A stretch of 64,000 nt of DNA from Afipia sp. Root123D2 (GTDB taxonomy: Bacteria > Pseudomonadota > Alphaproteobacteria > Rhizobiales > Xanthobacteraceae), in assembly GCF_001425835.1 (NCBI RefSeq), contig NZ_LMDP01000002.1:402827-466826 (forward strand), in the 5' to 3' direction. Every line of letters begins with the position of its first letter. Position 1 is the first letter of the stretch. Both the position numbers and the translations under genes were made by a program. Under the pieces are notes generated by a model, which searched no databases, was not told the DNA's origin, and was given only the letters and a program-made list of their open reading frames with translations. Of this stretch, positions 23,726-26,490 are shown one piece after another.

Positions 23726-23773
23726 ATGGTCGGAGTGGCAGGATTTGAACCTGCGACCCCTGCGTCCCGAACG
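23726..23773 (-). repeat. attL: duplicated 3' part of tRNA-Pro (island boundary)
   Basis: 48 bases identical to 26413-26460, comprising the CCA end, acceptor 3' strand, T-arm, variable loop and half of the anticodon stem-loop of tRNA-Pro. After 23773 the match breaks down into AAATGTTCTATCCGC, where the true tRNA reads CAGTGCTCTACCGGG. It is therefore a tRNA fragment left by site-specific integration and not a second functional tRNA. Confidence 0.9.
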
Positions 23774-23857
23774 AAATGTTCTATCCGCAAATAATTGATT
23801 TTACTGTGCTTTTCGTTTTACCTGATGTCATATTTTCACGTTTCGTTCACGGTATAT

Positions 23858-23877
23858 CTGCAACGAAACTGCAAACA
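23858..23877 (+). repeat. Internal island-end repeat, left copy
   Basis: CTGCAACGAAACTGCAAACA, one base shorter than CTGCAAACGAAACTGCAAACA at 26346-26366 and in the same orientation. Each copy also contains two CTGCAA direct subrepeats. They may be arm-type integrase binding sites or the residue of an older insertion at the same tRNA. Confidence 0.55.
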
Positions 23878-24030: not shown

Positions 24031-25266
24031 ATGAAACTCAATCACTGGGAGCCTGATCTGCGAACGATCAGCACGTGGATTCAGGACGGCGAGATTGACT
24101 TACAACCTAATTTCCAGCGAGGCGATGTCTGGCCTCTCCCCAAAAAGCGGAAGCTGATTGACACTGTTCTAAGGGGCTGGTCCATACCGCCAATCCACGT
24201 CGTCGTGACGCCCTCTGGCACGCTTGAGGTTTTGGATGGCCAGCAGCGCTTAACCGCCATCCGGGACTTCATGAGGGATGACTTCCCTGTCGATGGCTCG
24301 GTTGAACCGTTCGATCATTCGATTGAAGAACTGCACGGCACCCGATATTCGAATCTACCGCTTACGATGCGGAGGGCGTTCGATCAGTATACACTTCGGG
24401 TTTTCCGCATAACGGACTCCCGAACAATGGGAATGGGAGAGCTAGCCGCATTTCATCTTTGGTGGGCACTCAAAAATCTTAGCGAAAAGACGGTACTGCT
24501 TCTCGAAGAGCCTGAATCTTATCTATCACCAAGTTGCCAGACCGCTTTTGCGATCATTTTGGCGCAGCGCGCTGTCCAAATGAAAGCGTTCGTTATTTTA
24601 ACAACGCATTCTCCTGCGATCATAAGAGAAGCAGGCCTACACAATCTTCGCTTTCTTTATCGTGACGGACGAAATTCGCTTCTTAGCAATCCAAAGAGAA
24701 TCGAAGCACTGCTCAATGGCGTCGGAATAGAGACACGAACCGACACAATATTGCTGGTTGAAGACCAAGCTGCAGCTTTATTCACTGGCCTATGGCTAGC
24801 GCACTTTGATCCGATGGTTGCGATTGGAGTCGAAGTTCATCCATTAAAAGGAGCGAGCAATATAAACAAATTACTTGAAGCCTTTCCATCTACGGCAAGC
24901 TCTGTTCGAATACGCGGCCTGTATGATGGCGATCAAAAAGGCCAAGTGCCACGAGGAATAGAGCACCTAGCGGCCTTTCTTCCTGGTGATGTTTGCCTTG
25001 AGGCTATGTACCGCAAAATGCTCGCGGCTGATTATGATCGGGTTGGCCCTCTGCTCGGAATAGCTGATCTGGCAGCCATTCTTTATTCTCTCAGACAGTA
25101 CGAAGACCATGATTGGTTCGTTAAGCTGGCGAGTGCGGCGAATTTAACGATTGAGCAACTCCACCTACCGCTGTTTAAGGCTTGGATATCTGATCAAAAC
25201 AATCTGAATCTTGCCAAACAGGCATTCGAAGCACTGCAAAAAATCCTTGATTCCAATCGTTACTAA
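24031..25266 (+). CDS. Chimeric protein: DUF262 (DGQQR) domain fused to C-terminal half of an ABC-type ATPase with TOPRIM
   Basis: 411 residues. Residues 1-128 are the N-terminal part of a DUF262 / GmrSD-like domain (NFQRGDVWP, KLIDTVLRGWSIPPI, LEVLDGQQRLTAIRDF). At about residue 130 it switches to an ABC-ATPase C-half: signature-like MGMGELAAFHLWWAL, Walker B LLLEEPES (154-163) and the H-switch TTHSP (191-195). An OLD-like TOPRIM follows, with Glu245 in LLVEDQ and Asp299/Asp301 in LYDGDQKG. The ATPase N-half, including Walker A, is absent. DUF262 normally continues with an asparagine-rich NQG region, also absent. An in-frame deletion joining two defence genes, or a true fusion, are both possible. 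The parent families are phage-defence nucleases. The ribosome-binding site before the ATG is weak. Confidence 0.75.
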   Translation: MKLNHWEPDLRTISTWIQDGEIDLQPNFQRGDVWPLPKKRKLIDTVLRGWSIPPIHVVVTPSGTLEVLDGQQRLTAIRDFMRDDFPVDGSVEPFDHSIEELHGTRYSNLPLTMRRAFDQYTLRVFRITDSRTMGMGELAAFHLWWALKNLSEKTVLLLEEPESYLSPSCQTAFAIILAQRAVQMKAFVILTTHSPAIIREAGLHNLRFLYRDGRNSLLSNPKRIEALLNGVGIETRTDTILLVEDQAAALFTGLWLAHFDPMVAIGVEVHPLKGASNINKLLEAFPSTASSVRIRGLYDGDQKGQVPRGIEHLAAFLPGDVCLEAMYRKMLAADYDRVGPLLGIADLAAILYSLRQYEDHDWFVKLASAANLTIEQLHLPLFKAWISDQNNLNLAKQAFEALQKILDSNRY

Positions 25267-25346: not shown

Positions 25347-26000
25347 TCAATGGGCAACTCGTTCCGGCTTCTTCCCGACTCTGACCTTAATGGCTTGAGA
25401 CTTCTCCTTTTCTAGCCCATCTCTTAAACCGGCGGAAGCTGCTATACCAATTTCCGCAAGGACTTCCGTTAGCGCATTAACGGCTGGAGCAAACTCTTGC
25501 TCTTTGCTAGGCGCGATCTCAAACTTGACTCCTAATTCTATTTGGAACGCTAGAAATGCAGAGGGCGGTTCTAGTTTCCATCCAGCATCAATTAGTGCAT
25601 GCGCGATTACATTTGCGAAGTTCTTGGCCTCGGGGTCATCTTGGTATGTTACCAAGTCAAACACTTGCCCCTGAAATGGCCTTGCCGCTTCGATTAACCT
25701 TGCACTTTGTTCTTGGTTTAGGGATCGCCATGCCATTTCTTTTTCGAGCGTAAGCCTGGCGAGTCTCTCTCCTTCCGCGATTCTATTAGCTTCAGCTCCT
25801 CGAGCATCCGCTAGAGAAATGCGTTCGTCAGAATCTTGTTTATATTTCTCAAACTCAGTTTTGGACTCCGAAATCTCGGCTCTCTGCAATCTTACAACAA
25901 ACCAAGTTGAAAGCCCTGCGATCAAACCAGCCACCCCTACAATCAGGAGTGAAGCACGCATTAGATCTTCCCAGCTGTGGAGCGAGAGACCCCAAATCAT
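25347..26000 (-). CDS. Single-pass membrane protein with coiled coil, unknown function
   Basis: 217 residues from ATG 26000, chosen because AGAGAGCG lies 5-6 bases upstream; an ATG at 26024 would add eight residues. One transmembrane helix comes near the N-terminus (SLLIVGVAGLIAGLSTWFVV), then a charged coiled coil (about 45-105, KTEFEKYKQDSDERISLADARGAEANRIA...). A C-terminal domain has RPFQGQVFDLVTYQDDPEAK and a terminal Lys-rich tail. Similar hypothetical proteins occur in alphaproteobacterial accessory regions; the function is unknown to me. It converges on the chimeric gene, with 80 bases between the stops, and shares its AT-rich codon use. Confidence 0.65.
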   Translation of the reverse strand: MIWGLSLHSWEDLMRASLLIVGVAGLIAGLSTWFVVRLQRAEISESKTEFEKYKQDSDERISLADARGAEANRIAEGERLARLTLEKEMAWRSLNQEQSARLIEAARPFQGQVFDLVTYQDDPEAKNFANVIAHALIDAGWKLEPPSAFLAFQIELGVKFEIAPSKEQEFAPAVNALTEVLAEIGIAASAGLRDGLEKEKSQAIKVRVGKKPERVAH

Positions 26001-26196
26001 TTTCGCTCTCTTTGAAATAGTCATTTTAGACAATCGGGTGTCGGTTTGTCTGAGTCCTACGAGCATGAAGCAACAAATCGCGAAGACGCGGCGACCGCTA
26101 TTAGGTGTCAATAGCTTTAGGCTGACCTCAATTCGATTTGCTGGAATACAAAATCAAAGAACGAGGAAATAGCCGAACCAAAATCGCGCCTTGGCT

Positions 26197-26240
26197 TGGC
26201 TAGGCTTTGAACCTGCGCACCCTGCGTACTAGGCGCAACC
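26197..26240 (-). repeat. Decayed third copy of the tRNA-Pro 3' segment
   Basis: GGCTTTGAACCTGCGCACCC followed by TGCGT matches the att core AGGATTTGAACCTGCGACCC-CTGCGT with a few substitutions and then diverges (ACTAGGCGCAACC). It is in the same orientation as the two exact copies. This suggests an older attachment-site scar inside the island. It could also come from a different tRNA with the same T-arm. Confidence 0.6.
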
Positions 26241-26345: not shown

Positions 26346-26366
26346 CTGCAAACGAAACTGCAAACA
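26346..26366 (+). repeat. Internal island-end repeat, right copy
   Basis: CTGCAAACGAAACTGCAAAC followed by A, the partner of 23858-23877, 47 bases inside the right att repeat. See the island entry. Confidence 0.55.
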
Positions 26367-26413: not shown

Positions 26414-26490
26414 TGGTCGGAGTGGCAGGATTTGAACCTGCGACCCCTGCGTCCCGAACGCAGTGCTCTACCGGGCTGAGCCACACTCCG
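26414..26490 (-). tRNA. tRNA-Pro (anticodon CGG)
   Basis: 77-nt gene on the minus strand with CCA encoded (26416-26414). Acceptor strands CGGAGTG / CACTCCG pair. The anticodon stem CTGCG / CGCAG encloses loop TTCGGGA, giving anticodon CGG for codon CCG. The T-arm CGCAGGTTCAAATCCTGC is regular. The 3' 48 bases serve as the integration target of the island. Confidence 0.95.

Follow-up and report, generated by a model that had tools for sequence, protein, structure and literature searches.

A single open frame of 411 codons plus stop, starting with ATG, lies at positions 24031..25266 of the forward strand in the window, by which we mean the whole 64,000-nt stretch of Afipia sp. Root123D2 DNA analysed here. 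Its N-terminal part (24031..24417, forward strand, residues 1-129) belongs to a DUF262 (GmrSD_N) protein, which we call A, and its C-terminal part (24418..25263, forward strand, residues 130-411) to an ATPase-TOPRIM protein, which we call B. The Pfam family GmrSD_N (DUF262, PF03235) matches residues 14-130 with an E-value of 4.7e-16 (59.9 bits against a cut-off of 33.2) and stops at position 152 of the 199 profile positions, and the PADLOC model NsnA matches residues 7-129 (84.7 bits, 1.8e-24). Similarly, AAA_21 matches residues 128-198 (E 1.5e-9), covering only positions 233-303 of a profile of 304. As both Pfam profiles are covered only in part, the C-terminal part of DUF262 and the N-terminal part of the ATPase are absent from the fusion. 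The A part carries the DGQQR motif at residues 69-73, and the B part retains a signature-like MGMGEL, the Walker B motif EEPE, a TTHS motif and the TOPRIM residues Glu244, Asp299 and Asp301, the last three being invariant columns in an alignment of eight proteins. A Walker A P-loop, which in the intact relatives reads GPNGVGKTT, is absent from the fusion sequence, and a DUF1524 domain was detected by Pfam neither in the fusion nor in the closest intact A protein discussed below. The initial annotation, made from the sequence alone, had described one continuous 411-residue frame joining DUF262 to an ATPase and a TOPRIM domain, with the Walker A half and the DUF262 C-terminal half missing, and this description was confirmed by the ORF and Pfam analyses. 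It had also placed DGQQR at 69-73, MGMGELA at 133-139 and the TOPRIM aspartates at 299 and 301 correctly; the TOPRIM glutamate is residue 244 and not, as it had stated, residue 245.

The fusion is located in an islet of 2.7 kb with a lower GC content than the window as a whole. The islet is bounded by a tRNA-Pro(CGG) gene predicted by ARAGORN (26414..26490, reverse strand), the presumed insertion target, and, at the far end, by a 58-nt copy of the 3' end of this gene (23726..23783, reverse strand; direct repeat D1), in which 55 of 58 positions are identical and the first 48 are free of mismatches. We propose that the islet was probably inserted at the tRNA-Pro gene. The only other cargo discussed here is a frame of 254 codons, convergent to the fusion (25347..26111, reverse strand), to which no function was assigned and which had no Pfam match up to an E-value of 0.1; it is probably a real gene, and an N-terminal hydrophobic stretch can be seen by eye. 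No integrase was found by Pfam in the two main frames of the islet. An exact 16-nt direct repeat, AACGAAACTGCAAACA, is present near both islet ends (23862-23877 and 26351-26366), and these copies are possibly recombinase arm sites. A third piece of the tRNA-Pro end, 26 nt long and 88% identical, lies inside the islet at 26202-26227 and hints at an earlier, nested insertion.

In the genus survey, in which distances were compared by eye from match positions, the DUF2147 gene and the tRNA-Pro gene are only 37-99 nt apart in 13 of the 28 other species, corresponding to the empty state. The interval measures 0.5-15.7 kb in a further 12 species, with a tRNA copy in one of them only and with other genes in most of those that were read, and the two matches are on different contigs in the remaining 3. 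Neither the fusion nor the 254-residue frame had a match in the 15 sister-genome regions. Other small islets do occur at the same tRNA-Pro gene: one species (G028, L068:770-2824) carries an islet of 2.0 kb bounded by a 46-nt tRNA copy, the cargo of which, an HTH gene (1490-1798) and a 332-residue reverse transcriptase (PF00078, 1761-2759), is possibly a retron, and another (G001, L078:716-1983) carries an islet of 1.3 kb, again with a 46-nt tRNA copy, containing two convergent frames of about 140 residues with weak HTH matches below the Pfam cut-offs. In a third genome (G020, L064:3385-3433), a perfect 49-nt piece of the tRNA-Pro end is found with no tRNA gene in the surrounding 6.5 kb, possibly a displaced islet end.

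The two parts of the fusion have clear and separate parents. For the N-terminal part this is P0006, a 386-residue DUF262 protein with 80% identity over 138 aligned residues, and for the C-terminal part P0002, a 482-residue ATPase-TOPRIM protein whose residues 196-477 share 92% identity with all 282 residues of this part; with identities of this order on both sides, the joint cannot be a matter of chance. P0002 possesses a normal Walker A motif, and residues G49, G52 and K55 of this motif are invariant across 54 aligned B proteins and absent in the fusion. In general, the A-type DUF262 proteins comprise about 390 and the intact B proteins about 480 amino acids. Complete A and B genes lying directly next to each other on one strand, with A first, were found at no fewer than five loci in other genomes, namely in a genome of the same family (L004, a locus too short for its flanking genes to be judged well), Alicyclobacillus (L005), Reyranella (L006), Paenibacillus (L007) and Shewanella (L008). 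With the B start taken by homology, the two genes overlap by 4 nt in the first four of these (ATGA or GTGA) and by 14 nt in Shewanella. Eleven further A/B protein pairs, among them P0006 and P0004 on a 3254-nt contig, can be proposed from source contigs of equal size, which is an inference and not adjacency read in DNA, and at least 13 more A/B matches of equal-sized contigs were seen by eye in a further B-family search. For three close A proteins (P0007, P0009 and P0012), no B protein of an equal-sized contig was present among the matches listed. A B gene cut at the end of its locus (L009) was not counted as part of a pair, and the remaining genome-contig matches cover parts of B only. The A-B pair has also been damaged in a different way elsewhere: at a locus from the same class (L066), the DUF262 gene (374-1504) directly in front of an intact ATPase-TOPRIM gene is without its first ~80 residues.

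By eye, no third gene is common to the flanks of the Alicyclobacillus, Reyranella, Paenibacillus and Shewanella loci, where the neighbouring ORFs differ. The closest intact pair (P0002, P0003 and P0004/P0006) had no match among plasmids and phages and nothing close to it among viral contigs, and the genome samples, drawn at every rank from genus to phylum, yielded no close match either; among the matches listed, genome contigs gave more distant pairs only.

At the joint, the fusion reads RVFRITD followed by SRTMGMGEL. Eight A proteins that were compared have ITDY or ITEY at the corresponding position (ITDF in P0019), and in the three B proteins nearest to the fusion the sequence is YDSRTMG, so that the GAC at 24415-24417, the codon for Asp129, is shared by both parents and a T is expected next in both (24415..24418, forward strand; the position is deduced from the sequence and the protein motifs of the parents, at the protein level). 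The joint falls inside the interval 24415-24425, in which an abrupt junction had initially been placed. A microhomology of 2-4 nt, from GA to GACT, may have been present; this is only suggestive, as 4 nt or more are expected in 1 of 64 random joints. If P0006 and P0002 are taken as length standards, ~1358 nt (about 1.36 kb) are missing, which is an estimate since the two proteins do not come from one locus. Because A and B overlap by 4 nt and are read in different frames, the missing length would be about 3n+2 and not a multiple of three. The deletion had been described as in frame; this is true of the product, the frame of which is continuous, but not of the deleted length.

We consider it likely that the fusion is the product of one deletion of ~1.36 kb across adjacent A and B genes and that it is inactive, as predicted below. 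A and B would have lain side by side, and a single event at the short GAC(T) match would have removed the end of A together with the start of B. The initial annotation had offered two readings, and the first of them, a large deletion joining two adjacent defence-type genes, is supported by the five or more loci at which separate DUF262 and ATPase-TOPRIM genes are directly adjacent.

The composition of the two parts raises a different possibility. GC3 is 0.63 in the A part (81 of 128 codons) and 0.41 in the B part (115 of 282 codons; Fisher p 2.9e-5), whereas in five intact pairs the GC3 values of A residues 1-128 and of B from residue 196 to the end differ by at most 0.09. In addition, the best A proteins among the matches listed are 80-83% identical to the fusion and the best B protein, P0002, 92%, although in each of the 11 inferred pairs the A protein resembles the fusion more closely than its B partner does. 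The GC3 step and this imbalance in identity suggest that A and B may derive from different operons. One might speculate that the fusion is a mosaic, in which the parts originate from two separate A-B operons, or from an operon with a swapped A gene, and were joined by illegitimate recombination. We regard this as a serious minority view and considerably less probable than the plain deletion, with which the gene order and the homologous positions agree. GC3 can vary between neighbouring genes, and P0002, for which no close A partner was found, is encoded on a contig of 8086 nt that may yet hold one.

Little change was detected at conserved sites of the fusion. None of the columns conserved at the 90% level is changed, neither in the B part (0/48, 23 relatives) nor in the A part (0/43, 52 relatives), and lowering the threshold to 80% brings the count to 2/63 and 1/58, respectively, which is no higher than in intact controls such as P0002 (3/64) and P0006 (3/58). 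Over 283 columns, the fusion has 8 lineage-specific changes, counted against agreeing P0002 and P0003, and P0002 has 6, counted against agreeing fusion and P0003. A decay signal at conserved sites of the fusion was looked for and not found. The proline at residue 380 was considered as damage and rejected, a proline being present there in 2 of 23 relatives too. As the 90%-conserved columns are intact, the fusion event is probably recent. The sequence shows no sign of long decay, which suggests either a recent event or a protein that remains in use, and the earlier description of the frame as young or selected is to that extent correct.

The intact columns are equally expected of a selected fusion, which speaks against a view of simple decay. 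Such a compact protein, in which the DUF262 part would control the TOPRIM nuclease directly, or which would act as a decoy or in a dominant-negative way, could be invoked to explain the open frame, the unchanged 90%-conserved columns in both halves, a number of amino-acid changes not clearly above that of P0002 (8 vs 6) and the predicted folding of both terminal parts. We nevertheless think it unlikely, about half as probable as the mosaic, because the ATPase core is broken and the architecture is a singleton among the matches listed. In the protein database, the fusion is represented by one member sequence on one contig of 1,264,344 nt. No second protein with both domains was present among the best 120 of 418 matches to the fusion. 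In a search with an ATPase-TOPRIM family alignment that was open to longer proteins, DUF262 occurred in the fusion alone among the best 120 of 172 matches, and in a second such search in none of the best 120 of 429 matches. The genome samples gave only two other matches to B, both of them full-length (G120 and G1116); these overlapping samples comprised 29 genus, 391 family, 397 order, 385 class and 398 phylum genomes, with up to 4 candidates scored per genome in the larger ones. The search for proteins with the same junction thus yielded none among the matches listed. In the portions of the open-licence literature that were accessible, no paper was found which describes the fusion or names a two-gene DUF262 and ATPase-TOPRIM system.

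The predicted structures point in the same direction as the broken core. The fusion was modelled with AlphaFold from an alignment of 38 rows (pTM 0.49). When the model is divided into blocks of ten residues, a pLDDT of at least 85 is reached by 11 of the 13 blocks in the DUF262 part and by 16 of the 17 in the TOPRIM part, and the block means of the ATPase remnant, residues 131-240, are 44-63. For intact P0002 (54-row alignment), the whole model has a mean of 92.9 and a pTM of 0.81, and the corresponding stretch was modelled with confidence, with values of 71-98. This comparison is supportive and not a clean control, since the alignments differ, and the alignment used for the fusion mixes two families, which could lower the confidence of the model. 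In Foldseek searches, the fusion matched OLD nucleases, with one match below an E-value of 0.001 (6p74), and weakly BrxU, ParB and sulfiredoxin, and the intact B protein matched OLD, GajA, the retron protein PtuA and SMC/Rad50 heads.

An ABC ATPase without its Walker A half cannot bind ATP in the usual way. With Walker A gone, the fusion can most likely no longer function as the ATP-driven system of its parents, as far as can be predicted from motifs and models. We infer that DUF262, which is described as ParB/Srx-like in the accessible part of one study (PMC10952713), cannot take the place of the ABC ATPase half that carries Walker A. The second initial reading, in which DUF262 stands in for the missing ATPase half of a compact fusion not yet described, found no support: no second example was found among the matches listed, and the ATPase remnant was not modelled with confidence. 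It appears very improbable that a defence operon was reduced to a single functional protein of 411 residues, in which a DUF262 nucleotide switch gates a TOPRIM nuclease without an ABC ATPase cycle.

Still a shade less probable is an assembly artefact joining two separate genes, as a singleton protein evaluated without reads might suggest, since neither missing half had a match in the 4.8-Mb, 99.93% complete assembly of 7 contigs, the frame stays open across the joint, and the joint lies ~427 kb into its contig (C2; 1,264,344 nt in the database), far from the contig start. With P0006 and P0002 as queries, this assembly matched P0006 with residues 1-138 only and P0002, at the place of the fusion, with residues 196-477 only, the sole other match being one of 27% identity to ATPase residues 182-304 in another protein.

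With regard to known defence systems, the fusion and its parents resemble several families in part. Menshen is a three-gene system, and we take the PADLOC labels NsnA and NsnB to stand for it; judged by their titles, the papers found under these labels do not apply them to a defence system. NsnA is the best model for A, with 84.7 bits for the fusion and 115.5 bits (7.9e-34) for P0006. The NsnB model matches only part of the ATPase of B (2.1e-8 in the fusion; 56 bits and 1.3e-15 in P0002), and for P0002 it is outscored by a PtuA and an AriA model; the best-scoring PADLOC models match intact B only in part. Unlike Menshen, the intact relatives appear, by eye, to consist of two genes without a shared third one, and no separate third gene of the Menshen type was found among the frames of the islet. 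In the accessible part of PMC10952713, the DUF262 gene of Menshen goes with a predicted OLD nuclease, and the accessible parts of two further papers only list Menshen among other systems (PMC11680222, PMC11811056).

The combination of an ABC ATPase with a C-terminal TOPRIM domain is shared with the OLD family and GajA. Within the set compared (the Thermus scotoductus OLD protein 6p74, the C-terminal region of the Xanthomonas OLD protein 6njw/6njx, GajA and related PtuA ATPases), 6p74 is the best solved relative of intact B by sequence and fold and of the fusion by fold. However, the fusion lacks the N-terminal half of the ATPase, and intact B is short (~480 amino acids) and of low global similarity to 6p74 (TM 0.31). 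The type IV restriction enzymes GmrSD and BrxU share with the fusion the GmrSD_N domain with DGQQR and a weak fold match (BrxU 7p9k, E 0.013), but the DUF1524 domain had no match in P0006 or the fusion. The GajA-like ATPase segment and the TOPRIM residues are reminiscent of Gabija; however, the islet has no room for a GajB-type helicase, its largest other frame having 254 residues and no Pfam match, and the partner of B in the intact relatives is DUF262. As A and B resemble parts of Menshen and OLD-type systems, we propose an anti-phage role for the parental A-B pair, in which the intact DUF262 protein might act as a nucleotide-dependent sensor or switch for the OLD-like nuclease. The fusion would no longer do so, and what remains of the pair would be a DUF262 fragment and, carried by an unfolded linker, a TOPRIM domain.

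Taken together, the fusion most likely represents ordinary gene decay, through an ordinary kind of event, at a tRNA-Pro site which, as a by-product of this analysis, was seen to hold small islets bounded by tRNA copies in two other species of the genus. It also serves as a caution that a chimeric domain architecture known from one genome needs to be checked against the gene order of its parents. The more useful by-product of the analysis is the parent itself, a compact two-gene DUF262 and ATPase-TOPRIM pair.
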